DNA of 64,000 nt, from NCBI GenBank assembly GCA_037178675.1, contig JAYMGJ010000375.1:1-64000 (forward strand), in the 5' to 3' direction. The stretch's first letter is position 1. The number at the start of each line of letters is the position of its first letter. This DNA is from Scleroderma bovista (Eukaryota; Basidiomycota; Agaricomycetes; Boletales; Sclerodermataceae). Below are positions 40,873-64,000 of the stretch, in pieces. The notes beneath the pieces are model-generated. The model was given only the letters and a program-made list of their open reading frames with translations, searched no databases and had not been told where the DNA came from. Position numbers and translations under genes: made by a program.

Positions 40873-41109
40873 ATGCGGAGATTTGAAAGAAGAGCTAGGG
40901 ACAGAGACAGACGTCTCATGGGATTGCTAACACCGCGCAGAGCACCGGGAACTCACAACGGGAAACATCGTAGACAAACGACATTACGACAATTTCGATC
41001 ACCATCCCCACAGGCTTGGATAAATCCAAATCCTCGGAACATTCATGGTTCTATTCCAAATGGAGAAAACATGATCACTGACCTATTTTTCTTTTCCTCT
41101 TTGCTGTAG
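40873..41109 (+). CDS. Extra retrotransposon ORF 4, small basic protein
   Basis: 78 codons, very Arg-rich at the start (MRRFERRARDRDRRLMGLL), ending TAG at 41107-41109, one base before the gag ATG. It is in frame with ORF 3 and separated only by the TGA at 40843 and nine sense codons, so it may be read as an ORF 3 extension. Nucleic-acid binding is a guess from charge. Confidence 0.4.
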   Translation: MRRFERRARDRDRRLMGLLTPRRAPGTHNGKHRRQTTLRQFRSPSPQAWINPNPRNIHGSIPNGENMITDLFFFSSLL

Positions 41110-41110
41110 A

Positions 41111-42949
41111 ATGTCAACAAAAGATCTCTCCACTTATGTCCCGATTTTCGATGGAACGAACTACAAGGAGTGGTATGATAAGTTGGAAGCTTTCGCGATG
41201 GCGATGAAGTGCGATGGACCCATGACCACTGACAGAGCTACAGTTCCTGCAGCTGACCGCGATGCTTTTGACGTAATAGATCGTCAAATGCGAGGCATGA
41301 TACGTCTCCGCCTTGGAGCAACCTATCAGTCTCATGTAGGTGCTACTGCCAGGGCGACGTTGACAGCACTGAAGACCGCTTTTGGTACTCCTGGGAGAGT
41401 TGGAGCGCTCGTTGAGCTGCGTTCTTTGTTTCAGCATCGCATGAAACCCAACGCTAATCCCATCCATGAGGCCAATAACCTCATTCAGTGCGCTGCCCGC
41501 CTCTCTACGGCAGGATATGCTCTCGCAGACGGACTTATCGCTTTGGCCATTCTTATGGCTTTACCTTCCGATTGGGAGAACCTAGTGTCTACACTTTGTT
41601 CCACCCTCGACGATGCTGGTTTCACTGTTGCCACAGTCACTGCCCAGATTCATCGCGAGTATATGCGACGGCAGGCGAGTCGTGGCAGGTCCACTATATC
41701 TCTACAGGATCGACTGTCAGAGCGAACTTCTTTCGCTGCTGAGTATTCAGACGCCACTCTGGTGACGCGTCTCACAAATGTGAAACCTGCAGTTCGCCCT
41801 TCTTATCAAGGAGGTAACCGAGGAGGTAAAGGCAAGCAACCTGTTCGCGATGGACAGCGCAGCCAGTACCCGCGCTGTGTCTTCCAGGGATGTCGCCGGA
41901 ATCATTTCCCGGCTGAGTTTTGTCCTATTGGTCGTCAGAGAATTTTCTACGATCAAGGAGGCAAACAGATTTGCTGCCAACCTCAAGTCCAATCTCCTCC
42001 GGCTGGAGGATCGAGTAATAATCATCGCGGAACCCCTAATCGTGGTCGTGGAGGAAAAAGAGGAGGACGAGGAAGAGGGAAAGGCCGAGGAGGAGGTGGA
42101 ACTCATGTTGTCTTTGATGAGTCCCTCCAATATTATGACCAACCTGACTATGAGGAGTTTCAGGATTATACGGCCATGATGGTCGATCAACCAGCCACCT
42201 CGGGTCTTGCCGAGATTCCCGTTTCTCCAACTATCGAAAGTCTCGATGCACAGTTGGATGAGTATAACGCGGAGAGACCCATGGCTCCCTTCTCTGAAGA
42301 AGCCGTGCGGGCAATGTGGGCTGATGAATCAATGGGGCCTTCAAGTTTTGATGATATCATCGAAACTTATGAACAGGAGGCCACCTATGATTTTGATCGT
42401 ACCTGTGCGTTAATCCATGTCCCTAGGATTCCAACACAAGAGCCTGACGTCCCTCTCCTATTCTCCCATCCAGAAACTGAGGTTTCTTGGAATAATTGGG
42501 AAGAGATAGAGGATGAGGACTTTGTACGTTTAGTGCGACGCGAGGACGTTTTGTGTCCAGGTAGCGCCTTATGTGTTCGTTTTTGGAATCATGGGGGACA
42601 ACTCCCTTATATGGATGAACATGGCAATATTCGCCTTGATTCAATGAGTTCTGATGTGTTCTTCTTAAATCGTACTTTTGAAGGTCACACAGAGATCGTA
42701 CGAAATTTTCGAATTCCACGAGCACTCATCATTGGATGGTCATTCCTTGGTTTCCCTGCTGAAGTTCACTTTTATAGTGGAGAAGTGGATTGTGATTTGT
42801 GCAATACCTCACATCCACATTTTAGCTTTCGTCAAGCACCTCATAGCGAATCAGATGAAGCCATTCAAATGGCTGTTGATATCGCGAAGCGGAATCTCTT
42901 TCCACCTCGCCGCCCAACTATACCAACATCCTCGTTCCTGACAAATTGA
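41111..42949 (+). CDS. gag: Copia gag polyprotein
   Basis: 612 residues forming the virus-like-particle coat. The N-terminus (YVPIFDGTNYKEWYDKLEAF) and LRSLFQHRMKPNANPIHEAN match the Copia gag (UBN2/DUF4219-like) region. Instead of a classic zinc knuckle there is CVFQGCRRNHFPAEFC (Cx4Cx3Hx5C), followed by an RGG-rich run near residue 315 and a long acidic C-terminal part of about 270 residues that is unusual for Copia gag. TGA at 42947-42949; the frame continues open into pol. Confidence 0.88.
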   Translation: MSTKDLSTYVPIFDGTNYKEWYDKLEAFAMAMKCDGPMTTDRATVPAADRDAFDVIDRQMRGMIRLRLGATYQSHVGATARATLTALKTAFGTPGRVGALVELRSLFQHRMKPNANPIHEANNLIQCAARLSTAGYALADGLIALAILMALPSDWENLVSTLCSTLDDAGFTVATVTAQIHREYMRRQASRGRSTISLQDRLSERTSFAAEYSDATLVTRLTNVKPAVRPSYQGGNRGGKGKQPVRDGQRSQYPRCVFQGCRRNHFPAEFCPIGRQRIFYDQGGKQICCQPQVQSPPAGGSSNNHRGTPNRGRGGKRGGRGRGKGRGGGGTHVVFDESLQYYDQPDYEEFQDYTAMMVDQPATSGLAEIPVSPTIESLDAQLDEYNAERPMAPFSEEAVRAMWADESMGPSSFDDIIETYEQEATYDFDRTCALIHVPRIPTQEPDVPLLFSHPETEVSWNNWEEIEDEDFVRLVRREDVLCPGSALCVRFWNHGGQLPYMDEHGNIRLDSMSSDVFFLNRTFEGHTEIVRNFRIPRALIIGWSFLGFPAEVHFYSGEVDCDLCNTSHPHFSFRQAPHSESDEAIQMAVDIAKRNLFPPRRPTIPTSSFLTN

Positions 42950-42997
42950 GACGCTGAGTGTATTCTTTGTCATTCTTCATGCACCACCACTCTCTGT

Positions 42998-45900
42998 TTG
43001 GATTGTGGACGGAAACAAAGAGATGGAAGTACGCTAATTCTTTTGGATTCAGGCGCGTCGCGACATTGTACTCCTCATTTCGAGGATTTTATTTCCTATA
43101 AGCCGTATGGAGTGTCGAAGTTCTCGACTACTGCAGAAAAAGATACGTTTGTGGAGAAGCTTGGTCTCGGGACCGTTTTGATGCTTCACCACGGCAAGGT
43201 CATTCGACTAATTGACGTTGAGTATTGTCCGTCTGTTGCATGTCGATTGATTTCTACTGGGCAGCTCGTGGGTCAAGGTTATTCCCTGAGCACCACTGCC
43301 TCTGGCACAAGGCTTTTTGCACCTAGTGGCGACTTATATTTGCGGTCGGACCCGATAGCAAGTGTAGGACCTCTTCACTATGTCCGTGTACTTTTGCAGT
43401 GCATAGATGAAAAGGTACAAGTCATTAGTTCAAAGAAAGATGAGTATCTTCTTTGGCATCATCGTATGGGTCATCCTTCGAAAAATGTCATTAAACATTT
43501 GCATAGTGCATCTAGGAATTTTAAAGCCATTGCTATTCCTGCCGACCTAGCTCCTTGTTCTGGGTGTACTGCTGGGAAGATGGCTGAAAAGTCTTTCGCC
43601 ATCTCATATTCCCGTGCCACGAAACCACTGGAACTTGTCCATTCGGATCTCTGCGAGTTTCCTGTTCTGTCCTATTATCGTTGTTGCTATATTGCGACTT
43701 TCATTGATGATTATTCTGCTTTCGCATGCGTTTATCCCCTTGCTGCGAAATCCGACACCTTCCGCGTATTTCAGGAGTTCAAAGCCTGGGCTGAGAATTC
43801 GCTCGGTGCGCGACTCCTTCGATTGCGTTCGGATCGTGGGGGAGAATTTAGGACGAATGAGTTTTCTGCCTTCATGCGCCAGTCGGGCATTGAGCAGCAG
43901 TTTTCTTCGCCTGATACTCCTCAGCAGAATGGTCGTGCTGAACGGTTTAATCGGACGATGGTTGAGAAGGAAGAGGCTATGCGACATTCTGCTTGCCTTC
44001 CACCAAATCTCTGGCAACATGCTCTGGAAACTTCCGTCCATGTTTATAATCGCCAACCCTTTCGCAGATCTCTTTGGAAAACCCCTGTTGAGCTATGGAA
44101 AGGCAAAGTACCGGATGTCTCTTACTTCCGTGTCTTTGGTTGCCTTGCTTATGTATTCATCAAAAAGGACCAACGCAACAAACTCGAACCAAAATCCCGT
44201 CCTATGATATTTCTAGGCTACGAATCTGGCTCGAAAGCGTATAGGTTCCTGGATGAAGGAAGAATCGTCGTATCCGCGAATGCGATATTCGATGAAACCA
44301 TCTTTCCTCGATGTGTAAAAAGGATCGAAGAACCACGTCAAAATGAAGTTAGCCGTGAAGATCACGATGAAGAGGATCACGAAAGTGACTTGGGGGTCGC
44401 TCCTCCAATCATTAGTAGTGAATCAAATATTCCCTACTCGTCCACATACGATCCGCCACAATCTAGTGTGCAGGACAATGATGAGCCACCAGTTATACCT
44501 TCTGGAAGTAGTGCTCACTCTACTAGGATTCCACCAGCAGTAAAGGGCACTGTTTATACCCCTAAACCAATTATGGAGAGAGAAAGGTTTAAACCATATC
44601 CTGATCCATCCGTCCCTAGACGATCTGGTCGAATCAGAGTCGTACCGACTAGACCTGATAATGTCTATGGTGAGAATGCACATCCTGTAGAGGCCGAGAA
44701 ATTCGCCGAAGCAGAGAGTAATAAAGTGCAGGAGGATCAAATGACCTTAGGATTTGGGACTCAAGGAGAGAGTCATGACCTTGTGGATTTACATCGCTTA
44801 CATCATGAGTTTGGTTCAGATTTCTTGAACTTTCTGATGTCAAAAGCTGAAACCCTCACTCCACGGATTCCAGTACAGTATAGGGATATTTTGAGATTAC
44901 CAGCCGATGAAAAGAAGGCTTGGGATAGTGCTTGTCAAGACGAAATTGACGCACTTTGGAAGCGTCAAGTCTGGTCGCTAACCAATCTTCCTCCGAATCG
45001 TAAACCAGTTAAGTGTCGCTGGGTTTTTGCCGTAAAATCTGACGGTCGCAAACGTGCACGTCTAGTGGCAAAAGGTTTTTCACAGGAATATGGAGTGGAT
45101 TACGAAGATGTATTTTCACCCGTTGCAAGATTCGAGTCTGTTCGAATTATTCTTGCCCTGGCTGCGCAGAACGCTTGGAGTCTTCAAGCTTTGGATGTTA
45201 AAACTGCCTTCCTATATGGTAACCTCGAAGAGGAGATCTATATGGATCAGCCAGAAGGCTTTATCAAGAAGGGAAGAGATGAGAAGAAAGTTTACCGTCT
45301 CTTAAAAGCTCTTTATGGTTTGAAGCAAGCCGCTTTAGCGTGGAATATCGAGCTTCACAAGTCCCTTCAACGACTAGACTTTACCCGTGTCGTTTCTGAT
45401 GCTGAGATTTATGTTCACCATGGAGTAACTGGGAACAAAAAGGTCAAAGTTCTTCTCATCCTGATCATCTACGTGGATGATGTTCTCTTTACTGGCTCTG
45501 ACCAGAAATATCTTGGGATGATGAAAGAGAAGTTTATGAAGGTCTGGGAATGCCGCGACCTTGGGGCTGCAAAGGAGTATCTTGGGATGAAAATCCAGCG
45601 AAACCCATCAACAGGTTCTTTAATCGTTGATCAGGTGGAGTACCTGGACAAGATTCTCAAACGCTTCGATATGCAAGATTGTAATCCTGCAAATACCCCA
45701 CTTCCAGAGAAGTATGATCCAGTAGCGAGTATGGGGGAGTCTACTCCCAAATTACGCTCACAATATCAGTCAGTGATAGGATCTCTTCTCTATCTTATGC
45801 TTGGAACGAGACCTGACATTGCGTTTGCTGTCATCAAAATGTCTCAGTTCTCTGCGAGTCCAACAGAGGATCATCTTAATCATGCCAAGTATATCTTTCG

Positions 45901-46456
45901 CTATCTTCGAGCGAATAGAGAATGTGGCATTGAGTTTAAAAGAGATCACTCGTTGCGAGTGGAAGGGTATGTCGATGCCGATTGGGCTTCTGACAGAAAT
46001 GACCGGAAATCCTGTACTGGTTTTACCGTGTTGTTTAATACCTCTCCAGTTTCCTGGGTTAGCCGGAAACAGAAGACCGTTGCCACTTCAGCGACTGAAG
46101 CTGAGTACATGGCTCTTTCTGACGCTGCGAAACAGATATGTTGGATCAAGTCTTTACTTGAGGAGTTGTCTTTTGACATTCCACCTGTCGTTCTCTATGA
46201 GGACAATATGGGCTCCATATTCTTAGCGCAAAACCCCACGCAAGAGAGACGAACGAAACATATTGATATTCGTCATCATTTTATTCGCGAATGTGTTCAA
46301 GAAAGAAAGGTCATTTTGTTACGACATATCTCTACTGATAAACAGTTAGCAGATGTCTTTACTAAAGCCCTTGACAAAGTCAAGTTCCAGGGTTTTAAGA
46401 GTTTTCTTGTTGCCGACTTGACATGTCTCAAGTCTGGGGGAGTGTTGAGAAAGTAA
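42998..46456 (+). CDS. pol: Copia pol: protease, integrase, reverse transcriptase, RNase H
   Basis: Open for 1152 codons in the gag frame, truly from 42950 just after the gag TGA; no ATG opens it, so expression as Gag-Pol is expected. Domains in order: Cys pairs CILC...CLDCG bridging gag and pol; protease LLDSGASRH; pre-integrase LLWHHRMGHPSKN with CSGC; integrase Asp-Asp-Glu in VHSDLCEF, LRSDRGGEF and QQNGRAERFNRTMVEKE; RVT_2 WVFAVKSDGRKRARLVAKGF, LQALDVKTAFLYG and YVDD (45470-45481); RNase H YVDADWASDRNDRKS, ATSATEAEYMALSDAA and YEDNMGSI. Catalytic residues are intact. TAA at 46454 lies inside the 3' LTR. Confidence 0.95.
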   Translation: MDCGRKQRDGSTLILLDSGASRHCTPHFEDFISYKPYGVSKFSTTAEKDTFVEKLGLGTVLMLHHGKVIRLIDVEYCPSVACRLISTGQLVGQGYSLSTTASGTRLFAPSGDLYLRSDPIASVGPLHYVRVLLQCIDEKVQVISSKKDEYLLWHHRMGHPSKNVIKHLHSASRNFKAIAIPADLAPCSGCTAGKMAEKSFAISYSRATKPLELVHSDLCEFPVLSYYRCCYIATFIDDYSAFACVYPLAAKSDTFRVFQEFKAWAENSLGARLLRLRSDRGGEFRTNEFSAFMRQSGIEQQFSSPDTPQQNGRAERFNRTMVEKEEAMRHSACLPPNLWQHALETSVHVYNRQPFRRSLWKTPVELWKGKVPDVSYFRVFGCLAYVFIKKDQRNKLEPKSRPMIFLGYESGSKAYRFLDEGRIVVSANAIFDETIFPRCVKRIEEPRQNEVSREDHDEEDHESDLGVAPPIISSESNIPYSSTYDPPQSSVQDNDEPPVIPSGSSAHSTRIPPAVKGTVYTPKPIMERERFKPYPDPSVPRRSGRIRVVPTRPDNVYGENAHPVEAEKFAEAESNKVQEDQMTLGFGTQGESHDLVDLHRLHHEFGSDFLNFLMSKAETLTPRIPVQYRDILRLPADEKKAWDSACQDEIDALWKRQVWSLTNLPPNRKPVKCRWVFAVKSDGRKRARLVAKGFSQEYGVDYEDVFSPVARFESVRIILALAAQNAWSLQALDVKTAFLYGNLEEEIYMDQPEGFIKKGRDEKKVYRLLKALYGLKQAALAWNIELHKSLQRLDFTRVVSDAEIYVHHGVTGNKKVKVLLILIIYVDDVLFTGSDQKYLGMMKEKFMKVWECRDLGAAKEYLGMKIQRNPSTGSLIVDQVEYLDKILKRFDMQDCNPANTPLPEKYDPVASMGESTPKLRSQYQSVIGSLLYLMLGTRPDIAFAVIKMSQFSASPTEDHLNHAKYIFRYLRANRECGIEFKRDHSLRVEGYVDADWASDRNDRKSCTGFTVLFNTSPVSWVSRKQKTVATSATEAEYMALSDAAKQICWIKSLLEELSFDIPPVVLYEDNMGSIFLAQNPTQERRTKHIDIRHHFIRECVQERKVILLRHISTDKQLADVFTKALDKVKFQGFKSFLVADLTCLKSGGVLRK
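46436..46442 (+). promoter_or_regulatory. Polypurine tract
   Basis: GGGGGAG abuts the 3' LTR. This is the expected site of plus-strand priming. Confidence 0.7.
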
Positions 46457-48261: not shown

Positions 48262-48915
48262 GATGCTCACAAAACTGGGCCAGGCCGATGTTTTCTATTA
48301 TTGCAAATCTAGTACAGGCCTGAGGGACATTAATCACTGCAAAACTGGGATGGGCTGATGTTTGATAAAAATTGTAGAACTGGGACTGGTGGGAGCATTG
48401 TAAAACTAGGTCAGGCCTGTTGAACAAAAAAATTGACAAGTGTTTCAAAGCTGGGACTGGCCGATGTTGTAGATACATTGCAAAACTGGGTCAGGCCTGT
48501 TGAGAAAAAAGTTGTCAATTACTGCAAAACTGGGTCAGGCTGACATGGCAGAATTGGGTCAGGCCTTTTGAGGAAAAAATTGTCAAGCATTGCAAAACTG
48601 GGTCAGGCTGACATTGTATATACATTGCAGAACTGGATCAGGCCTGTTGAGAAAAAAAGTTGTCAAGCATTGCAAAACTGGGTCAGGCTGACATTGCAGA
48701 ACTGGGTCAGGCCTGTTGAGGAAAAAGTTGTCAAGCATTGCAAAACTGGGCCAGGCTGACATTGCAGAACTGGGTCAGGCCTGTTGAGGAAATAGTTGTC
48801 AAGCATTGCAAAACTGGGTCAGGCTGACATTGCAAAACTGGGTCAGGCCTGTTGAGCAAAAAAGTTGTCAACCATTGCAAAACTGGGTCAGACCCAAAAT
48901 TGATACACATTGCAG
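48262..48915. repeat. Tandem repeat family A, left arm
   Basis: Irregular units of 30-75 bp built from GCAAAACTGGGTCAGGCTGA, GCAGAACTGGGTCAGGCC and TGTTGAGRAAAAAGTTGTCA. Mirror of 54340-55075. Confidence 0.85.
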
Positions 48916-49670
48916 AATTAAATTACTGTGCTGACTACCAAAAATGTGGACCATTGATTAGGCAATATTGTGTACTGTTGGTGTGATAGTGTTGACTACC
49001 AAAGATGTGCAGCTTGGATTATCTAATGTTGTGTTCTATTGGTGTGGTAGTGCTGATTACCAAAAATGCGGACTATTGATTAGCCAACGTTGTGTAGTGT
49101 TGTTGTTGTAGTGTACTACCAAAAATGTGTAGTATTGATTACCTAATGTTGGGTACTCTTGGTGTGGTAGTGCTGATTACCAAAAATGCGGACTATTGAT
49201 TAGCCAATGTTGTGTAGTGTTGTTGTTGTAGTGTACTACCAAAAATGTGTAGTATTGATTACCTAATGTTGGGTACTCTTGGTGTGGTAGTGCTGATTAC
49301 CAAAAATGCGGACTATTGATCAACCAATATTGTGTGGTGTTGTTGTAGTGTACTACCAAAAAAAGTGTAGTACTGATTACCTAATGTTGTGTAGTATTGA
49401 TGTGATAGTGTTCATTACCAAAAATGCGGACTGTTGATTAGCCAATATTGTGTAGTATTGTTGTAGTGCACTACCCAAAATCTGTAGTGTTGATTACCCA
49501 ATGTTGTGTAGTGTTGATTACCAAAAGTGCGGACTTCTGATTAGCCATTATTGTTTAGTGTTGATTACCAAAAATGCGGACTATTGATTAGGAAATGTAG
49601 TGTAGTGTTTGTGTATTGGAGTTGATTACCAACATTGTGTAGTTTTCATTAACTAAATTCAGTAGTGTCA
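48916..49670. repeat. Tandem repeat family B, left arm (about 0.75 kb)
   Basis: Degenerate units of about 60 and 120 bp around TTGATTACCAAAAATGCGGA and TATTGATTAGCCAATNTTGT. Shorter than the mirror array at 51475-54340. Confidence 0.85.
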
Positions 49671-49689
49671 ACACTTGATTACATAAGCT

Positions 49690-50522
49690 CTCCAAGCGCC
49701 ACTACTCCCAAAACATTACCATATTTGGTCAATAGTTGACTTCAAATATTCCCACCTTTGTTCTGGTACTTTTCTTCCCCTTCTGTGCTTCATCCCTGGT
49801 CCAAATGTACTGTAAAAATGATTCTGTATCCCATATTACCCTATAGGATCACCATTGGACCCTCATCTAAATGTGCAAGGGGCTCTGTATCCCCAGAGAG
49901 TAGTGCAGGCTTAAAAACACCAAAAATGTTCGCATTTTTGATACATTCAACATATCAACTTAAAGAATGCATCCCCATACAGGGGATATATGTACCTACA
50001 ACATATTTACAGTCCACAGCATGGGATCCATGTCCTGGTGCGATGTTTTATGTTTTTCCTTTGCAAACATATCACCATGGCAGGCAATTACTAGGAGGTA
50101 TGGTGGCTACTGGATGGTCTCCAGTGGTATTACTATGCTATACCAAAGTCCCAATACAATCTAGTGAGCAGCTGACCACTCCAAGAGGAGCAGCATAGAA
50201 AACAGCACTTTCATAACAATAGGTGCTGTATGATCCTCCAGATCAGGTATGCACAATATGACTATCTCAAAAGCTGGGGGATACCATACAGTAGTGGATA
50301 CAATTTACTCAAGTCAATACCGCTTGATGTGGGGGAGGGAAGGGCACAATAACATACAGAAGGCGTGGGAAAATACCCCACAAAATGCGGAGATATGCAA
50401 AAACATTACATATCACACAACACATAACATCTACTGACCTAGAAATGCTACCAACAGCCTACTAATATCACATAATGCTTATACTCAGCTGTTCCTGACA
50501 TGCTTAGAGGCACAAATCATTT
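49690..50522. repeat. Inner palindrome arm, left
   Basis: Near-identical inverted copy of 50618-51450. The open frames in it (49758-50198 begins with TTG) occur equally in both arms and have no recognisable domain; I treat them as non-coding. Confidence 0.9.
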
Positions 50523-50617
50523 GAACCAAGAACATGTTGTTACTGTCCATATACACTGCAGCTTTGCACCTGCAGTACTGATATGATGTAGCACATTTCC
50601 GCATTTTTCAAACCTTG
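50523..50617. other. Central spacer (loop) of the palindrome
   Basis: About 95 bp without inverted symmetry between the two inner arms. Confidence 0.8.
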
Positions 50618-51450
50618 AATGATTTGTGCCTCTAAGCATGTCAGGAACAGCTGAGTATAAGCATTATGTGATATTAGTAGGCTGTTGGTAGCATTTCTAG
50701 GTCAGTAGATGTTATGTGTTGTGTGATATGTAATGTTTTTGCATATCTCCGCATTTTGTGGGGTATTTTCCCACGCCTTCTGTATGTTATTGTGCCCTTC
50801 CCTCCCCCACATCAAGCGGTATTGACTTGAGTAAATTGTATCCACTACTGTATGGTATCCCCCAGCTTTTGAGATAGTCATATTGTGCATACCTGATCTG
50901 GAGGATCATACAGCACCTATTGTTATGAAAGTGCTGTTTTCTATGCTGCTCCTCTTGGAGTGGTCAGCTGCTCACTAGATTGTATTGGGACTTTGGTATA
51001 GCATAGTAATACCACTGGAGACCATCCAGTAGCCACCATACCTCCTAGTAATTGCCTGCCATGGTGATATGTTTGCAAAGGAAAAACATAAAACATCGCA
51101 CCAGGACATGGATCCCATGCTGTGGACTGTAAATATGTTGTAGGTACATATATCCCCTGTATGGGGATGCATTCTTTAAGTTGATATGTTGAATGTATCA
51201 AAAATGCGAACATTTTTGGTGTTTTTAAGCCTGCACTACTCTCTGGGGATACAGAGCCCCTTGCACATTTAGATGAGGGTCCAATGGTGATCCTATAGGG
51301 TAATATGGGATACAGAATCATTTTTACAGTACATTTGGACCAGGGATGAAGCACAGAAGGGGAAGAAAAGTACCAGAACAAAGGTGGGAATATTTGAAGT
51401 CAACTATTGACCAAATATGGTAATGTTTTGGGAGTAGTGGCGCTTGGAGA
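50618..51450. repeat. Inner palindrome arm, right
   Basis: Inverted copy of 49690-50522. Confidence 0.9.
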
Positions 51451-51474
51451 GCTTATGTAATCAAGTGTTGACAC

Positions 51475-54340
51475 TACTGAATTTAGTTAATGAAAACTAC
51501 ACAATGTTGGTAATCAACTCCAATACACAAACACTACACTACATTTCCTAATCAATAGTCCGCACTTTTGGTAATCAACACTACACAACATTGGGTAATC
51601 AACACTACAGATTTTGGGTAGTGCACTACAACAATACTACACAATAATGGCTAATCAACAGTCCGCATTTTTGGTAATGAACACTATCACATCAACACTA
51701 CACAACATTAGGTAATCAGTACTACACATTTTTGGTAGTACACTACAACAACACCACACAATATTGGTTGATCAATAGTCCGCATTTTTGGTAATCAGCA
51801 CTACCACACCAAGAGTACCCAACATTAGGTAATCAATACTACACATTTTTGGTAGTACACTACAACAACAACACTACACAATATTGGCTAATCAATAGTC
51901 CGCATTTTTGATAATCAGCACTACTACACCAACAGTACACAACATTAGGTAATCCAAACTACACAATATTGGCTAATCAATAGTCCGCATTTTTGATAAT
52001 CAACACTACCACACCAACAGTACACAACATTAGGTAATCCAAACTACACATTTTTGGTAATCAACACTACACAATATTGACTAATCAATAGTCCGCATTT
52101 TTGGTAATCAACACTACCACACCAACAGTACACAACATTAGGTAATCCAAGCTACACATTTTTGGTAATCAACACTACAACAATGACACTACACAACATT
52201 GGTTGATCAATAGTTCGCATTTTTGGTAATCAACACTACCACATCAATAGTACACAACATTAGGTAATTAATACTACACATTTCTGGTAGTACACTACAA
52301 CAACAACACTACACAATATTGGCTAATGGTTCGCATTTTTGGTAATCAGCACTACCACACCAACAGTACACAACATTAGGTAATCCAAGCTACACATTTT
52401 TGGTAATCAACACTACAACAACAACACTGCACAACATTGGCTAATGGTTCGCATTTTTGGTAATCAGCACTACCACACCAACAGTACACAACATTAGGTA
52501 ATCCAAGCTACACATTTTTGGTAATCAACACTACAACAACAACACTGCACAACATTGGCTAATGGTTCGCATTTTTGGTAATCAGCACTACCACACCAAC
52601 AGTACACAACATTAGGTAATCCAAGCTACACATTTTTGGTAATCAACACTACCACACCAACAGTACAAAACATTAGATAATCAATACTACACATCTTTGG
52701 TAGTACACTACAACAACAACACTACACAATATTGGCTAATCAACAGTCCGCATTTTTGGTAATGAACACTATCACATCAATACTACACAACATTAGGTAA
52801 TCAGTACTACACTTTTTTGGTAGTACACTACAACAACACCACACAATATTGGTTGATCAATAGTCCGCATTTTTGGTAATCAGCACTACCACACCAAGAG
52901 TACCCAACATTAGGTAATCAATACTACACATTTTTGGTAGTACACTACAACAACAACACTACACAACATTGGCTAATCAATAGTCCGCATTTTTGATAAT
53001 CAGCACTACTACACCAACAGTACACAACATTAGGTAATCCAAACTACACAATATTGGCTAATCAATAGTCCGCATTTTTGATAATCAACACTACCACACC
53101 AACAGTACACAACATTAGGTAATCCAAACTACACATTTTTGGTAATCAACACTACACAATATTGACTAATCAATAGTCCGCATTTTTGGTAATCAACACT
53201 ACCACACCAACAGTACACAACATTAGGTAATCCAAGCTACACATTTTTGGTAATCAACACTACAACAATGACACTACACAACATTGGTTGATCAATAGTT
53301 CGCATTTTTGGTAATCAACACTACCACATCAATAGTACACAACATTAGGTAATTAATACTACACATTTCTGGTAGTACACTACAACAACAACACTACACA
53401 ATATTGGCTAATGGTTCGCATTTTTGGTAATCAGCACTACCACACCAACAGTACACAACATTAGGTAATCCAAGCTACACATTTTTGGTAATCAACACTA
53501 CAACAACAACACTGCACAACATTGGCTAATGGTTCGCATTTTTGGTAATCAGCACTACCACACCAACAGTACACAACATTAGGTAATCCAAGCTACACAT
53601 TTTTGGTAATCAACACTACAACAACAACACTGCACAACATTGGCTAATGGTTCGCATTTTTGGTAATCAGCACTACCACACCAACAGTACACAACATTAG
53701 GTAATCCAAGCTACACATTTTTGGTAATCAACACTACCACACCAACAGTACAAAACATTAGATAATCAATACTACACATCTTTGGTAGTACACTACAACA
53801 ACAACACTACACAATATTGGCTAATCAACAGTCCGCATTTTTGGTAATGAACACTATCACATCAATACTACACAACATTAGGTAATCAGTACTACACTTT
53901 TTTTGGTAGTACACTACAACAACACCACACAATATTGGTTGATCAATAGTCCGCATTTTTGGTAATCAGCACTACCACACCAAGAGTACCCAACATTAGG
54001 TAATCAATACTACACATTTTTGGTAGTACACTACAACAACAACACTACACAACATTGGCCAATCAATAGTCCGCATTTTTGGTAATCAGCACTACCACAC
54101 CAAGAGTACCCAACATTAGGTAATCAATACTACACATTTTTGGTAGTACACTACAACAACAACACTACACAACATTGGCTAATCAATAGTCCGCATTTTT
54201 GGTAATCAGCACTACCACACCAATAGAACACAACATTAGATAATCCAAGCTGCACATCTTTGGTAGTCAACACTATCACACCAACAGTACACAATATTGC
54301 CTAATCAATGGTCCACATTTTTGGTAGTCAGCACAGTAAT
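51475..54340. repeat. Tandem repeat family B, right arm, expanded (about 2.9 kb)
   Basis: Reverse-oriented units such as TAGTCCGCATTTTTGGTAAT and CAACAGTACACAACATTAGG. Includes a run of 118-bp units (starts 52323, 52441, 52559) and 120-bp units near 53940-54180. Organised into 1085-bp higher-order repeats, listed separately. Confidence 0.9.
51651..54060. repeat. 1085-bp higher-order repeat, two copies plus a partial third
   Basis: The marker CTAATCAACAGTCCG recurs at 51651, 52736 and 53821, exactly 1085 bp apart. A second marker (the end of AACATTAGGTAATCC) recurs at 51955 and 53040, again 1085 bp apart. Between markers the order of subrepeat variants is the same. The third copy loses similarity around 54060. 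Confidence 0.9.
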
Positions 54341-55075
54341 TTAATTCTGCAATGTGTATCAATTTTGGGTCTGACCCAGTTTTGCAATGCTTGACAACTT
54401 TTTCCTCAACAGGCCTGACCCAGTTCTGCAATGTCAGCCTGACCCAGTTTTGCAATGCTTGACAACTCAACAGGCCTGACCCAGTTCTGCAATGTCAGCC
54501 TGACCCAGTTTTGCAATGCTTGACAACTTTTTTTCTCAACAGGCCTGATCCAGTTCTGCAATGTCAGCCTGGCCCAGTTTTGCAATGCTTGACAACTTTT
54601 TCCTCAACAGGCCTGACCCAGTTCTGCAATGTCAGCCTGGCCCAGTTTTGCAATGCTTGACAACTTTTTCCTCAACAGGCCTGACCCAGTTCTGCAATGT
54701 CAGCCTGACCCAGTTTTGCAATGCTTGACAACTTTTTTTCTCAACAGGCCTGATCCAGTTCTGCAATGTATATACAATGTCAGCCTGACCCAGTTTTGCA
54801 ATGCTTGACAATTTTTTCCTCAAAAGGCCTGACCCAATTCTGCCATGTCAGCCTGACCCAGTTTTGCAGTAATTGACAACTTTTTTCTCAACAGGCCTGA
54901 CCCAGTTTTGCAATGTATCTACAACATCGGCCAGTCCCAGCTTTGCAACACTTGTCAATTTTTTTGTTCAACAGGCCTGACCCAGTTTTACAATGCTCCC
55001 ACCAGTCCCAGTTCTGCAATTTTTATCAAACATCAGCCCATCCCAGTTTTGCAGTGATTAATGTCCCTCAGGCCT
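54340..55075. repeat. Tandem repeat family A, right arm
   Basis: Mirror of 48262-48915: units CTGACCCAGTTTTGCAATGC and CTTGACAACTTTTTCCTCAA. Confidence 0.85.
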
Positions 55076-55136
55076 GTACGGTGTAGAGACGCAGAGGTGC
55101 ACATATACCGATCAGTATTCACCTGAACTCGCTCGT

Positions 55137-56518: not shown

Positions 56519-58682
56519 GCCCATGCACATGTGTAGGCCATATGTGATGGCCAGATGAGGTGATATTCACCCACATCAGCAAAACTACAGCTGTCTTGGA
56601 ACAACTTAATTACTGAGCCCATGCACCTACTTAGGCCGTCTTACACGGCCACCCCAGGGTGAAAATCGGCCGAGTATGACGGGCCAGCGGACAGAGGGCC
56701 CTGGATGAGTTGTTATCGGTTTGTACGGGTTGGCTAGCTACAAGGATATTGTTGCAATGTGTGAGGATGGGCTAGGGTGTCAATTAAGGGGAGGGTATAT
56801 AGATCAAATTAAATATTATCATGGAATCATATGAATGAGCCCTGAAAAGATTGTGCCGCATATTAATGGGGGGTACATAATGTGTTATCACCATATCAGT
56901 GGGTTGGACCCAGACATTGCTATCATCCATGGTAATTGATGGGCCCATATTGCATTGTAATCAAAGCATATAGCAAAGCTGTATAGAATCAGCACAAAGC
57001 AGGGCATACCGCTAGGCATGCAGGACTGCAGAAAAGGAAACACCCGCGGGCTTTTTGTAGTAAATGGAAAAAGGGAATACTTAATGGGATGGAAACTGTT
57101 GTTGGTGATACTACAAAGCACCATGAGGGGGGGGGGAATAAATAGGATGGGATCCATGGATGCTACATATCCACGGTTTGTTTGGTTGGTACACCACAAG
57201 AGATAGGAAAGGAAATGAGGTAGCATAACAACTAGAGCAGGACCTTGTGGGTGACTAGTACCGCAGTATACTAATAAGAATGATGGAATGCTACAGCAGG
57301 TGTGAAGACGCACATCAAGAGCAATTAAATACAGTATCCTGTTAGATATATTAGTATATCACCCGCGGGAACAAATTACCAGCGGATACACGATATTGCT
57401 AGAGAGGTAACCCAGCATACAAGTGCTAGGTAGTACGGTGCCAAAGGTAAATTTGCCTAGAATGAAATCCGGGTGCGAATGAGTTCATCACCGCGGGTGC
57501 AGCGGGTAGATACAGGGAATGGGTGCCAATGATTACTAGTGATTATGTTCCCTACTGGTAGCACAGGAGAATGGTACCGCGGCGAAGTATACTAATCAGC
57601 AGTCATTAACACTTATTGAAATTTATTAGATTATGGTGAAATTAACAAAGTGTAAGGTTTTGAAGGTAATTAGTCAGTGGGATGTTGCTGAACACACGAG
57701 CCGCGCGGTATGTGACTGAACCCGCAGTCATTTCAGCAGGCACAACTGAAACACCCACACAAGAATACATTATGTTCAAAATAGCATAGTAAGAATGTGT
57801 AGAGAAACATTAATATATAGATCAGGACACATTAAATATGAACCAAGCCATGGTTGCCTCAAGGCTTAGAACCCACAGTGAATTAGTTTTCAGAGGCCTT
57901 AGAAAGACAATGCAGGTACTTCCTGGAAATTAACCGATTATATGGAGGTGTGGATAACAAGTGGATGATACTATATACACTATCTACTAGGATAACAGTA
58001 CCAATCAAAGAGAAGAGGGATACCACAAACAGCATGCTATGCTGCAAAATGATTGGGTAGAAACTTATGCTAGATGAAAACAACAGATAAATATACAATA
58101 ACTTAATATGGCGTGGGATCTGACAATGGATTGGTCGGATTGGGTTGGGCAGTGCCAGGTACCGCGGTCAATTCAATTGCATATAGCTACTGCTGTTCTG
58201 CTGGTAGGATGCTAGTTGAGGAACTACATAAAATAGACCATGGTGACGGTGGGTAGATACAACCTTATCCGATCACCATATCAGTGTTTATTCAGATCAT
58301 GGTAGTACCTGCAAAAAATGGGGTGTACACTAGTTTAATTAATATAGAAAAAACATAGAGACATGGTCTACAAAAATATAAATTACACTGTGAAGAACAG
58401 GGGTTCACAAAGAGTTTCATATTCAAATACCTAGCCTGCTGAATGTTCAAAAGCCGCGGTTAGCCTCATTTGACATGGAATTAATTAAATTAATCACACC
58501 GGGTACATTAAATCACTATTGAAAGACACAAATTATATATTCAAAGAATGCATGCATGACATTCCAGTACTCCAATGACACAAGTAAGTAGATGACTTGC
58601 ATAAAGGGAAAAAAGAAAAATTGTTTGGGTGTACAAAAAGAATAGTCCAAGAGGGAAACATACAAAAAATGTAAGTAACAAA
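56519..58682. other. Gene-free, AT-rich stretch with six CCGCGG palindromes
   Basis: About 2.2 kb. Frames at 56888-57313 (-) and 57018-57206 (+) lack domains. Contains two related 17-bp hairpin motifs near its left side and CCGCGG at 57044, 57363, 57491, 57577, 58162 and 58454. Probably regulatory or structural DNA of the element on the right. Confidence 0.5.
56536..56650. repeat. Pair of related 17-bp hairpin motifs, 98 bp apart
   Basis: 56634-56650 is GGCCGTCTTACACGGCC, a perfect 6-bp-stem hairpin. 56536-56552 is GGCCATATGTGATGGCC. Both are preceded by GAGCCCATGCAC, so they are a direct repeat; the first looks like a CpG-depleted copy. Confidence 0.6.
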
Positions 58683-60560
58683 TCATGCGGTTGTATCCAT
58701 TTGGGTATCCACCCCATCACCTACCGATCCTTCGACAATACCCGCGGGACCCGGTGCTGACACATCCAGTGATGTGACCACAATGGTGGGAGGGGGGACA
58801 GCGGGAGTATCCACGACCATTGTGGCATCTGAGGCATTTGTCGGAAGAGGGCAGGGGGGTGGCGCATAGTCTTCATCAACACCAGAGTCCACCGACCGCG
58901 GCGAGTGTGCATCCCCGGTGGGCGACCACAGAGTCACCAGCAGGTCAGTTGGCACATCGATTGGATGGGGATCTGCGACTGAGGAATCCTGGCCCTCCAG
59001 CAATGCAGGTGCTGTAGATGGAGACTGACCTGGCACCTGGTCGTCGGGCATATCAGCGGTGGTGTGGAAGGTGAGGCCAGCAGATGCAGGGACCGAGGAA
59101 GGTGAAATGGGACCTGGATTGGATGCAGGACCATCCACAGGTGTGGATGTTTGCACAGCAGCGGTGGGCAATGGCGTTGGAGGGGCAGTGAGCGTACTTG
59201 ATTGCAAATCTTCCACCAGCTGACGAAGGGTGTCCATTTCCAGCTCCTGGGCGTTGAGTCTTCGATTAACATCGCCCAAATCCTCTTTCAACTGCGAGCA
59301 TTCGCTGCAGGCACTCATTGTCGCAGTGGTCGCATGCTCGCTCCATTCTGCACTTGTGCCGCGGTTGCGGGATTTTGACAGCCATTTCAGTCGGACTATA
59401 ACCACTCCATCAAATTCTGTTTAGACTTTCAGAAGAACACAAAAAGGAAATATAATCACTCACTTTCACGCCTGCCCCTTGATGGCCCAGGTGTAGGAGG
59501 GCGGGGTGCAGACCGGGGATGTGGGGTATCATCCGCGGGAATGGGACTCTGAGCTTTGTGCTTGCGAGTCGAATGGGAAGGGTTGACGCGAGTAGGTGCC
59601 AGTGGGACTGTCTTCGATGGAGGAGACACCCTGCGACTGGCTTGCCTGGTTGGTGCACGCGACCGCGACCGAGACCTTCCACGTTTGGATGCCAGGCTGC
59701 ACCCATGCTTCGATTTGTTGCATTGGAAGCATGCGCGATCTTCTTTCCTCGCACAGGGCAGCTGGCGACGGGCACAGTAGTCGCACCGGTCCACAGCTGG
59801 AAGGATCGGAAAGTCGGGTGGGGGGTGTTGAAGGTCGAATGTCTTATTGGAACCACGACCAGTGGGGTTCTCTTCCTCGTCGCTGTCAACCATCGGAGCA
59901 GACTTGACGCGTTTGCGAGGGCGACGGGACTGGCTACGTCCCCGTGTCTGCCCATGCCCACGACCGCGGCGACTCCCTCTGACTTCCTCACCACCTGCTG
60001 CCTGTGACGAGCTAACCTCATCATTACTCACCTCATATTCCCTTCCCTTCCCCTTATCCACAGCCTCTGTCACTTCCTCCTCTCCGTCCATCTGGGTGTC
60101 TTCCATTGCTGCTGGAACCGCTCCACCGTCCTGACATGGTGGACCGCGGTGTGACCATGGATGGTCAGCGACGGTCTCCAATGGGCACTGTAGAAGTTCA
60201 GGCCACCTCGGCCACTCCGTAATACCATCGTTTGGGTCTTCCAGGTACCGGTCAAGGGCCATGAGCATGGGAGGAATGCTCAAACTGCGGGGTATGTCTC
60301 CCGCAACTGCTCTAACACGGTTCTGCCAGGTATCAGCTAAATGAAACTAGCATAAAATGATAACTTACCAACTGAGTCCAGACATCCCGCTGAACCTGCA
60401 TCCACAGCGTCATATCCTTCATTTTCTTAATGGTTGTGACTGTTGAGATGATGACGGACGTGGCATCCGCGATAATTTCGGCAGGCATCATGGGAGTGTC
60501 AAAAAGACCGGACAGGTCAGATGTGGGTGCGAGTAGGGCAGTCGAAGGCTGGGCAGACAT
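58683..60560 (-). CDS. Unrecognised Cys-cluster, RS-rich, coiled-coil protein of a putative mobile element
   Basis: Three exons (60560-60369, 60322-59464, 59395-58683) with introns of 46 and 68 bp; 587 residues from ATG 60560. Regions: N-terminus MSAQPSTALLAPTSDLSGLF; a conserved-looking block PPMLMALDRYLEDPNDGITE with WPRWPELLQCPLE; basic RGRGHGQTRGRSQSRRPRKR; a Cys cluster CDYCARRQLPC...CFQCNKSKHGC that could bind zinc; an Arg/Ser run (RGRSRSRSRAPTRQ); CSECSQLKEDLGDVNRRLNA starting a coiled coil; a long Pro/Ser/Thr-rich tail. I believe similar Cys-cluster proteins are multi-copy near DNA transposons in Agaricomycetes, but give no family name. It carries six CCGCGG sites. Confidence 0.7.
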
Positions 60561-61380
60561 AGCAGAATGAGACAAAGGGTGATTGGAGGTGGATAGCAAG
60601 GACGCGGTGTGGAATCCTCACGGCAAGGTTGAATATTTATTATGGTTACGTCATCCAGGGTCCACTATGGCCGCGGTGTCAGATTGACAGATGTACGTCA
60701 CACCGCATGGAAATGATGGCCGATGACCTAGAATGTCGGAGAAGCCTGCCACATGTCTGGAAATAAATGTATGTAAGAATTGTATGTTACTCCTCCAAAA
60801 TATTGTATTGAATAATGCTGGTAGAGAACATGTGACAATCATGAATTTATGAAGATCATTACATTGCATCTGCTTCCATTGACTACGGGAAAATAATACA
60901 TACTTCAGACTGTTCAAACTACATGAAAAAATGGCAAATTGTACAGACAGTAATACCACAATCTCACCCAAAATATGAAGTTAGACAAATCAAACCAGAG
61001 TCCACTCCATGGGTAAAGCTGCGGCTGACAGGTAATTAGTAAAATTTGACTGCCATGGCCACCACATGATGGACAAGTCAAATAGTCAAATACCTACCAT
61101 TATATGTAATATGTACCACTATCTGCCTGGAGGATAACATTTGGGATATTGCCTGTGATATTATACACAATTACCGTGGATGATGCCCTATTACAACCTA
61201 AATATGGAATAATGGGCGCATTGTAGATACATTCCAGGCTGCATTCCACCGATGACATCACGCGGCTCATTGTGCCCGCGGGAAATGTCTTATATAAGCT
61301 AGTCCATACAATATATATTTATTCTGGACCTGTCCATCCCACCCTTGCACTCCGTCGTACCTCGTTCCTCTATTTACATC
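60561..61380. other. Divergent intergenic region
   Basis: About 0.8 kb between two head-to-head genes, with CCGCGG at 60671 and 61276. Likely a shared promoter; TATATAAGC-like TTATATAAGC near 61290 lies about 90 bp before the plus-strand ATG. Confidence 0.45.
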
Positions 61381-62923
61381 ATGAGTGGGCAAAGGAATGT
61401 GAGATTCATAGATGATGGCGCAGCCAACTCAGGTATGTCTATGAATCCAAGTCTCCTCAAAGTAACTCCCAAACTTATTTTCATTAGCTTTATTCGGTAG
61501 CCCAGGATGGATACCTCCCATTAGAAATGCTACACGCACCTCGTGTTTGTATATCTCTCTCGATATTAGGCACTGCTAATCTAATCATCGCAGCGAGCAA
61601 TAGTAGCACTGGATGGTCTCCACCGCGGATTCCAGCAACTGTGGATTCCACAATGATGGTGGACACCAAAGTTTCAAATAGTCCTTCCGCAAGGTCTCAA
61701 AGGGATTCAGGTATGTATTTATTGTTTTATATTTCTTATAATTCATTTCATGTTTGCAGCTAGTGAGAGGAGCACAGGCGGGTCTCCAACACAGTATCTG
61801 CCGTCCATGACCGCGGCTATGACAATTTCTCGGAGTGGGTCGTGTATGTATTCTATTTGTTGCCTTTATTGCACCTTATAAAATCTTTTCAGCAAGTTCC
61901 AGTAGCAGCAGGGGTTGGTCTCCACCACACGTCCGGCCGCGTATGATCCCCGGTGCTGCAATGTCGGTGCACAGCACCAGTCCAAATATTCTCCTGGCCT
62001 TGGAAGTTGCGCTTCGTAAGGATGAACAAGAGCAACTGTTGCGACAAGATCAATCCTCCACTACCGATTGGGATCCTCCCGCACTCCCACCAACAGGGAG
62101 ACATCCCCGCGATGCTGGGCCCCACAACAAATTACAAGAGGTACCGACACCTTCATCCATACAAAAAAGTCCATCAGAAGTCTCCATGGATACCGACACA
62201 TCCACCAACAGTGGTGGATGGACTCCCCCTCCCCAAAGACCCCAAGAAATATTCCGCGGGTTATCCACACCACTCTCACCGCTAACTCAATCATCCATGT
62301 CGATGTCGCCACACCCTGCATCAACTATTGATAGCGATACTGACAGGGAACAAATTTCCCGCAAGGACCAGTGGCCAAGGGTTATTGGTACCAGTCCCAC
62401 CACCCACAATAGAGTGCTGGAGAAAGGAAAGGCGCCGGAAACCGAGCTGAATGAGGTGACCTGTCCAAAGGTTGCGGAGGGTAAGTTTGCCTTCAAATTT
62501 GATACTGTTAGCTCACAGGTCCATAGATAAATGGTGGCAGTTAGTCTACAGTATGGCCAACATGGACATCTATGGCGGTAGGTTCAATGGGCCGCGGCAT
62601 GAATGTGAGTTCTCATTGGATAATATTGTATTGATACTTACAAAGAAATAGTAACAACAGCCCGTGAAATAGCTGCAAGATTTCACCCAAAGGATAGAAG
62701 GGTCACCAAACTGGACGACCTCTATGACAAACCGATGGTCGTGATGTACAAACAATATGCGGATAGGTTGGTAGAAGAGACATGAGAATGGAGAAGGCTT
62801 GTCAATGGCCGGGCACAGTATGCAGAGATGAGGGAGAGACTGGTGCACATGGACAAAGGTGAGGGATCCGACTCAGACAATGGCATGTATGATATGGAGG
62901 ACTTGGATCCTACCATGTTGTAA
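61381..62923 (+). CDS. Modular protein with repeated G-W-x-P-P motif, all introns phase 1, in-frame TGA near the end
   Basis: Seven exons: 61381-61432, 61488-61544, 61594-61710, 61760-61843, 61893-62480, 62545-62604 and 62652 onward. Each intron is phase 1, and internal exons measure 57, 117, 84, 588 and 60 nt, all multiples of three. Motif copies: GSPGWIPPIRN, SSTGWSPPRIP, RSTGGSPTQYLP (degenerate), SSRGWSPPHVRP, TDWDPPALPP, NSGGWTPPPQRP. The C-terminal part (MANMDIYGGRFNGPRHE, TAREIAARFHPKDRR, KQYADRLVEET) reaches TGA at 62783-62785. The frame then stays open (EWRRLVNGRAQYAEMRERLV, acidic tail DMEDLDPTML) to TAA at 62921, suggesting a recent nonsense change or readthrough. No family recognised; mostly disordered. 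Confidence 0.65.
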
Positions 62924-62996
62924 TTACATTCCTGTGTATATAGTGAACCGGAAAACAATACTTTCTCACTAATATATTTACATGCATGTATGGTAA

Positions 62997-64000
62997 CTAC
63001 TTTCGGGATCTCTTTGGAATGCGGTCGTCCAGGTAGTCCTCAAGCTGCGGTGGAAGCCTCTTATGCCGGGTGGACTGCCGCTGTGCAGGCGCAGCCATGG
63101 CGGTAGGTGGCTCAGGAACCATTGGCACGATGCTGTCTGAATTTGCAGGCTCTGTGGCAAATTGTCTGGGAGGTGCCTTGTCACCGGTGGCAGGGCCCAC
63201 GGTTTCAAACTGCACCCGGCGAGTACTTGTTCTGGCGTCTGGGAATTCTTGTTGTAAATATATATTATATATATAAGATACACAATGACAAACTTACTTG
63301 TCATCTTGGCACCTCGCTTATCCTGTGGCTGGTCAATTGATGTTTTGGAAGGACCAGTGATTGCCTGCTGAGCTGCGGGAATACTTTTACCTAACGTAGA
63401 TTTTTTTTCTGAACATATGTTAGAAGTATGATAAGATGTGTGTATATATTAGAATACTGGTACCTTTAATTTCGGTTGCCGTCTTAGCCGCGGTGACTGA
63501 TGCAGCTCCATTTTTTGTCCTATGGGCAGCAGTGCTTTTCCCTGGGAGCACACCATGTTTCTCTGAAGTTATGTAATATATGAAACACATTGAAGGTTTA
63601 ACAGCACACAATACTCTTACCTTTTGTCTTGGCCCCTGGTCTAGTTGCTCCGACCTCTGCTGCAGGAAGGGAAGGCACCGACGTTTCCTGCTGCATTGTA
63701 GCACTAGTCTCACCAATTGCTGCAGGTTGTTTCTCTTCAATGATATATAAAAGATTTAACTATTAATAAATGTGTGACCGCATAACATTAGACAAACCTT
63801 TGGTCTTCACCCGCGGCTTTGGTTTGTCACTGACCACAGGATGATTTACCATCATATCTGTGGGTGCATGACCCATATCATCCGGTATTTTTTGTCAATT
63901 TTCACCGTCATATAATGTATTTCTCACCTTTTTGTTTCACAGGTTCAGCATCCTTATGTTGATCGGATCCAGCAGGAATAAAATATGCCTTGTTGGGTGG
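62997..64000 (-). CDS. Modular Lys/Ala/Pro-rich protein built of phase-1 exons (partial, runs off the right edge)
   Basis: Exons on the minus strand: 64000-63928 (partial), 63857-63798, 63734-63621, 63562-63464, 63408-63298 and 63247-62997. All introns are phase 1; complete internal exons are 60, 114, 99 and 111 nt. Several exons begin with Glu-Lys (EKQPAAIGET, EKHGVLPGKS, EKKSTLGKS) and end Lys-rich before the splice (KPKPRVKTK, ATRPGAKTK, ATEIK), which looks like exon duplication. The last exon ends RLPPQLEDYLDDRIPKRSRK and TAG at 62997. It is tail-to-tail with the previous gene, 73 bp apart. Two exons carry CCGCGG. No domain recognised; low-complexity, possibly DNA-binding by charge. Confidence 0.65.

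Follow-up and report, generated by a model that had tools for sequence, protein, structure and literature searches.

Transposon-borne TET enzymes, which published speculation has acting without a target, are known in Agaricomycotina from the TET-encoding Kyakuja (KDZ) DNA transposons described by Kojima (2025; PMC12730594); two Laccaria families appear in that report with CA..TG ends and no terminal inverted repeats. Two plant systems show element-encoded proteins connected with their own elements. VANC21 of the Arabidopsis VANDAL elements binds the motif YAGTATTAY, which is enriched in its own subfamily (PMC5735166, 2017), and TnpA of maize En/Spm has been linked to demethylation of its own element (PMC10398659). 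Among zinc cluster proteins, Pdr1 binds TCCGCGGA (PMC8211738). Here we analyze a 64,000-nucleotide stretch of Scleroderma bovista (positions 1 to 64,000 of contig JAYMGJ010000375.1, assembly GCA_037178675.1; hereafter the window), at whose right end begins a KDZ transposon that encodes a zinc-cluster-pattern protein and is strewn with the palindrome CCGCGG, an everted repeat of CGG that Pdr1 binds in yeast (the PDRE). Elsewhere in this genome, sister subfamilies carry other words alongside other types of the zinc-cluster gene, which suggests that the zinc-cluster-like protein of each family recognizes its own DNA, perhaps as an escape from silencing. Among the matches listed in a literature search whose scope did not include Iyer et al. 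(2014), the paper that founded the KDZ/TET field, KDZ or Kyakuja elements were not joined with zinc-cluster genes or with CCGCGG.

CCGCGG sites and the KDZ transposon that carries them

Exact search found 22 CCGCGG in the window. Only two lie in its first 57 kb (16368 and 30227) and the other 20 at 57044..63816, 86-896 bp apart, just as the initial annotation had counted them; as palindromes they are listed without strand. They start at 57044, 57363, 57491, 57577, 58162, 58454, 58742, 58896, 59359, 59533, 59964, 60144, 60671, 61276, 61623, 61811, 62254, 62592, 63488 and 63811. The next commonest palindromic hexamer within 57044-63816 is ATATAT, with 13 occurrences. Dinucleotide shuffles of the whole window gave a mean of 7.44 CCGCGG and a maximum of 16, none of 100 reaching 22. 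Because the density across the genome is merely 0.143/kb (7400 in 51.83 Mb, about the same as the 7239 of the reversed control GGCGCC), the 2.95/kb of this region, 20 sites in 6.8 kb, is an approximately 20-fold enrichment, so that the local excess first noticed by eye holds at genome scale.

The initial annotation also remarked that the sites are read in different frames; the six in the 1806 coding nucleotides of the zinc-cluster gene do occupy all three codon phases (exon borders by eye). Synonymous-codon shuffles of this gene averaged 1.49 CCGCGG, with 1 of 500 reaching six or more, and together with the dinucleotide shuffles they lead us to reject chance, composition and codon bias as the source of the excess. 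Two other points of that annotation are to be corrected: the region is not notably AT-rich (47% GC, versus 48% in the rest of the window), and the dense stretch does not end at 63816 but runs on beyond the window to about 71.2-71.7 kb of the 91-kb contig (C375).

The large mobile element that had been guessed at is a KDZ (Kyakuja-like) transposon, the left part of which occupies 56615..64000 on the forward strand, as judged from alignments, terminus and domains. Alignments to copies in contigs C288, C554, C67, C212 and C604 begin at 56602-56615, and the terminus GAGCCCATGCACC occurs with different flanks in C375, C288, C554, C67 and C604. To the right the C375 copy extends past the window to about C375:71405, where its alignment to the complete C288 copy ends, before the position of the TET/JBP gene, and near which sequence resembling the end of another element begins. 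CxC2 and KDZ domains are found at C375 69.2-70.8 kb, beyond the window edge (KDZ PF18758, E 4.2e-31). The complete C288 copy measures 19,231 bp and has the 7-bp target duplication GACTAAT at both sides (one copy examined); its ends read GAGCCC..ATGTG, and close to them is an imperfect terminal inverted repeat of about 72 bp. Its KDZ transposase match occupies 11.7-12.1 kb in element coordinates, and its TET/JBP gene (Tet_JBP match, 15.6-16.0 kb) has the HxD motif and no stop. The copy contains 38 CCGCGG (1.3 expected), and the 1,340 bp of flank examined contain one. The window element matches 58 places in the same genome at identities from 98% down to <70%, and genome-wide, counting at exon level, KDZ matches number at least 166 and TET/JBP matches at least 150. 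Scans of viral contigs found no relatives.

The zinc-cluster gene lies on the reverse strand at 58683..60560, with exons at about 60369-60560, 59459-60337 and 58683-59417; it was recognized from open frames, splice-like borders drawn by eye, and homologues. Exon 2 has 23 similar database proteins, which are known without genomic context or names. Zn(II)2Cys6 proteins follow the spacing rule CX2CX6CX5-12CX2CX6-8C, and a cysteine-pattern scan located a pattern that satisfies it, CX2CX6CX7CX2CX6C, at 59699..59785 (reverse strand). The cluster was modeled with pLDDT 86-95, and its structure matches were few and weak in score: Foldseek returned two, both Pho7, and the ten matches listed in a second look were to HAP1, PPR1, Leu3, 1cld, Pho7 and GAL4, all of them Zn2Cys6 proteins. 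In Pfam the cluster is sub-threshold or absent. Beyond the cluster are an RS-rich region and a predicted coiled coil, possibly for dimerization, at 59202..59297 (reverse strand), called by a home-made heptad scan and accompanied by a sub-threshold Pfam match to CEP63 (E 0.061). The Cys-cluster protein, like the transposase, had been put forward at the outset as a possible binder of CCGCGG; its spacing, and more weakly its modeled fold, point to the Zn2Cys6 kind, whose members read CGG triplets, and binding itself would be predicted.

Sister subfamilies, their words and their zinc-cluster genes

We sampled the surroundings of KDZ, TET or zinc-cluster matches in this one genome as eight stretches, each 10-20 kb long and together of seven kinds, A to G (two of A, the element described above), with gene models drawn by eye, and ranked hexamers by z-score against 60 dinucleotide shuffles. 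Three word classes are clear: the CCGCGG group, E and B. A, C and D all have CCGCGG as their highest-scoring hexamer (z 29-53), with 73 occurrences in C (2.3 expected) and 59 in D (1.5 expected), and in F the 17 occurrences of CCGCGG (0.8 expected, z 19.7) place it second to the overlapping CGCGGA (z 20.8). In E the top word is ACCGGT (54, 2.1 expected, z 40), with a single CCGCGG; in B it is CGGCAC (56, 7.2 expected, z 17.5), with just five CCGCGG. The leading hexamers of G are AAAAAA, ACTCCG and ACCGTG (z 9.8, 9.4 and 9.0). In three stretches of the window taken as controls, no hexamer exceeds z 6.2. A CGG occurs within each of the words CCGCGG, ACCGGT and CGGCA. The F element (G000:C306:16001-34000) has a second strong repeat besides CCGCGG, ACTCACTA, present 24 times.

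Outside dense arrays CCGCGG still numbers 38 in A (1.3 expected), 48 in C (2.1), 50 in D (1.5) and 17 in F (0.8), and in the two A copies all 34 and all 38 sites are outside arrays. The corresponding counts are 12 ACCGGT in E (1.8 expected), 19 CGGCAC and 26 CCGGCA in B (6.8 and 8.5 expected) and 8 ACCGTG in G (5.7 expected). The excess is therefore body-wide and strong for CCGCGG, mostly array-borne in E and B, and confined to arrays in G, where we discard ACCGTG as a subfamily word (two hexamers also rank above it). A purely positional word pattern is rejected for A, C and D by the positions of their sites, and may hold for E and G. Even spacing was not found in A, C or D; the gaps have a coefficient of variation of about 1.1, and the sites are therefore without regular phasing.

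Seven of the stretches, and the eighth (G) as well, have exactly one open frame with the Zn2Cys6 pattern, and the zinc-cluster genes of the elements examined are homologous, with exon identities to A of 36-37% for B and E and 45% for F. The proteins of A, C, D and F share RRxLPCxxKED, just as their elements share CCGCGG (A and F are 45% identical as proteins); the cluster of E has RKGDKMC and that of B has VQQDRRC, so that residues between the cysteines differ alongside the words. Sequence searches of solved structures gave nothing for a six-sequence zinc-cluster profile or for the cluster of E, and five unconvincing matches (best E 0.49) for that of G.

Words and zinc-gene types co-localize with little crossover among the places listed first, namely 50 of 176 CCGCGG pairs (forward strand), 50 of 905 ACCGGT pairs and 100 of 1843 GTGCCG pairs (both strands), drawn from 20, 8 and 15 contigs; the places are not independent, gene positions came from low-numbered contigs among the matches listed, and the tallies are raw, without a random expectation. 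CCGCGG pairs were near CCGCGG-, E- and B-type zinc genes in 18, 1 and 0 of the 50, ACCGGT pairs in 0, 10 and 0 of the 50, and GTGCCG pairs in 0, 0 and 50 of the 100. For 38 of the CCGCGG, 43 of the ACCGGT and 88 of the GTGCCG pairs, a KDZ, TET or zinc-cluster match among those listed lay no more than 12 kb away, leaving 12, 7 and 12 pairs near none of them. Contigs C24 and C19 each have two elements with two words: on C24 the ACCGGT pairs lie within 37.8-54.7 kb and the GTGCCG pairs within 76.4-92.1 kb, and C19 has GTGCCG and CCGCGG pairs. A cluster of CCGCGG pairs at G000:C43:18514-22068 is more than 12 kb from every listed match to KDZ, TET or the zinc cluster and is possibly a non-autonomous derivative.

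A second KDZ/TET element adjoins the first (L036-L037, C375 73-91 kb). Its word is different, CGGCA/TGCCG, and some of the occurrences form 17-bp tandem arrays next to the TET gene. Two modular accessory genes of the window element, with frames drawn by eye, have CCGCGG in their exons, as first observed: one with repeated WSPP-type units at 61381..62925 (forward strand; sites 61623, 61811 and 62254 in its frames), and one with short exons at 62997..63900 (reverse strand; sites 63488 and 63811). A WMPP-repeat frame in the adjoining element (L036:3513-4457) makes WSPP/WMPP accessory frames common to both KDZ subfamilies. Farther left in the window, 48312-55079 is a large nested foldback structure, possibly a foldback element, with arms of 1003 nt (49519-50521 and 50618-51620, 99% complementary, 96 nt between them) and additional inverted arms of 609 and 580 nt (98-99%). 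At 41075-46456 are frames like those of a Copia-type LTR retrotransposon (of 624 and 1168 aa, judged by eye to be gag-like and integrase/RT-like), a stretch in which exact search found zero CCGCGG.

CpG decay, retention and the possible role of the words

Close copies were compared in three alignments of 90-98% identity, all against C288, so that one site may be counted repeatedly. Of 45 CCGCGG found on one side only, 43 differ in the aligned copy by C-to-T at CpG, which is what methylated, decaying copies would show; the early guess of CpG methylation thus gains the decay expected of methylated sites, from which methylation itself may be presumed. Better conservation of CCGCGG was expected among these close copies and was not found: it was kept at 0.57, 0.40 and 0.50, versus 0.66, 0.59 and 0.47 for other two-CpG hexamers, and CpG decay dominates.

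Between CCGCGG subfamilies the palindrome is kept more often than control hexamers with CpG in three comparisons out of six (approximate Fisher tests, uncorrected, of comparisons that share sequences): it is kept at 0.62 versus 0.26 for other two-CpG hexamers in A vs C (p 0.0008), 0.65 versus 0.46 in C vs D (p 0.011) and 0.39 versus 0.19 in A vs D (p 0.041). The differences were non-significant in A vs C173 (0.46/0.34), A vs F (0.18/0.08) and C vs F (0.29/0.20). Many CCGCGG are present on one side only, so there is turnover of individual sites, with C and D nevertheless remaining densely populated. The palindrome recurs in other copies of the element, and diverged copies have lost many sites, those of C59 keeping 0/8, 0/8 and 0/7 of the window's CCGCGG.

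We consider it probable that the CCGCGG array is an address tag of this TET-encoding KDZ element, read by its own zinc-cluster protein for a self-directed function. The protein would bind, as a dimer, the everted CGG repeats scattered over its own 19 kb, and the bound protein would mark element DNA as self and steer an element function there. That function would most likely be relief of silencing by CpG methylation, possibly involving the TET/JBP dioxygenase of the element; it might instead be the loading of transposase. More tentatively, and with rather less than even confidence, we suggest that each KDZ subfamily carries a sequence-addressed demethylation module consisting of a zinc-cluster reader, its own CpG-containing word repeated along the element, and a TET/JBP enzyme brought by the reader. 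Reader and word would change together, so that coexisting subfamilies would not rescue one another. Weighing against the pairing of words with gene types, an ACCGGT array at G000:C24:68728-68969 lies near a B-type TET gene and more than 12 kb from any E-type zinc gene; it is either a remnant or an exception.

The main rival, which we judge unlikely, is that the words are loading sites for transposition, used by the CxC2/KDZ transposase or by a TnpA-like helper, with no epigenetic role. Element E speaks for it, since most of its 54 ACCGGT lie in two blocks whose spacing is 15-bp-related (2.0-3.1 and 13.3-14.0 kb, in coordinates of the 15.2-kb stretch, not of element ends), an arrangement like that of the subterminal repeats of CACTA elements. 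TnpA, of a different protein family, also binds subterminal repeats. Against such loading, 17 of the 20 one-kb bins of the complete A copy contain CCGCGG, with some sites as far as about 9-10 kb from both ends, the sites of C and D run through the whole stretch examined, and the inverted repeat of A, as aligned, is without CCGCGG.

Still less probable to us is that the words are host marks, either targets of a host methyltransferase or silencing system or places where a zinc-cluster transcription factor of the host binds. The CpG within the words and the C-to-T changes in close copies would suit it, as would the service of PDRE-like sites in host regulation in yeast, but neighbors on one contig (C24, C19) have different words near their own zinc-cluster type, and in close copies the decay of other two-CpG hexamers is about equally fast. 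That composition, codon bias or repeat expansion made the words without function is very improbable: arrays do account for a large part of the excess words of B, E and G, and amplification of a single ancestor accounts for copies inside a subfamily, but both kinds of shuffle fall short of the observed counts, the A sites all lie outside arrays, and CCGCGG is retained better than the CpG controls in three comparisons (A-C, A-D, C-D) but not in the other three.

Comparison with known systems

If the addressed module is real, TET action in fungal transposons would be targeted, contrary to the speculation that it is not. It would offer transposon-borne TET a concrete address system with natural specificity variants within one genome, provide a fungal counterpart to the VANC anti-silencing of plants, assign zinc-cluster proteins a role on transposons, and supply reader/word pairs for the study of how zinc-cluster specificity evolves.

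With the TET-encoding Kyakuja transposons as described (PMC12730594) the Scleroderma element shares the KDZ transposase, the TET/JBP gene and the 7-bp target duplication; unlike the two Laccaria families, it has GAGCCC..ATGTG ends and an imperfect inverted repeat. We place it as Kyakuja-like within KDZ provisionally, by these shared features. With Pdr1, Pdr3 and Leu3 as described (PMC8211738, PMC5415576), its zinc-cluster protein shares the cysteine spacing, the predicted coiled coil after the cluster and, as its candidate site, the everted CGG word. Unlike them, it is transposon-encoded, its Pfam matches are sub-threshold or absent, it has the RS-rich region, and its candidate sites lie also in exons of its own element.

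In working, the element would resemble VANDAL/VANC and Spm TnpA, and we class it as a member of neither. It shares with TnpA an element-encoded protein, the link to demethylation belonging to TnpA (PMC10398659). It shares with VANDAL/VANC, as reported in PMC5735166, short subfamily words that are dense in the cognate element and covary with an element-encoded factor. VANC words are described there as mainly non-coding and often in tandem repeats, whereas CCGCGG in Scleroderma lies also in exons (6 of the 20 at 57044..63816 in the zinc-cluster gene, and more in frames of the modular genes). Loss of methylation has been demonstrated for VANC (PMC5735166), and the likeness drawn here, from sequence, concerns how the two might work. 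Unlike VANDAL/VANC, the Scleroderma element has a factor of zinc-cluster pattern, words that contain CpG, and a TET gene of its own.

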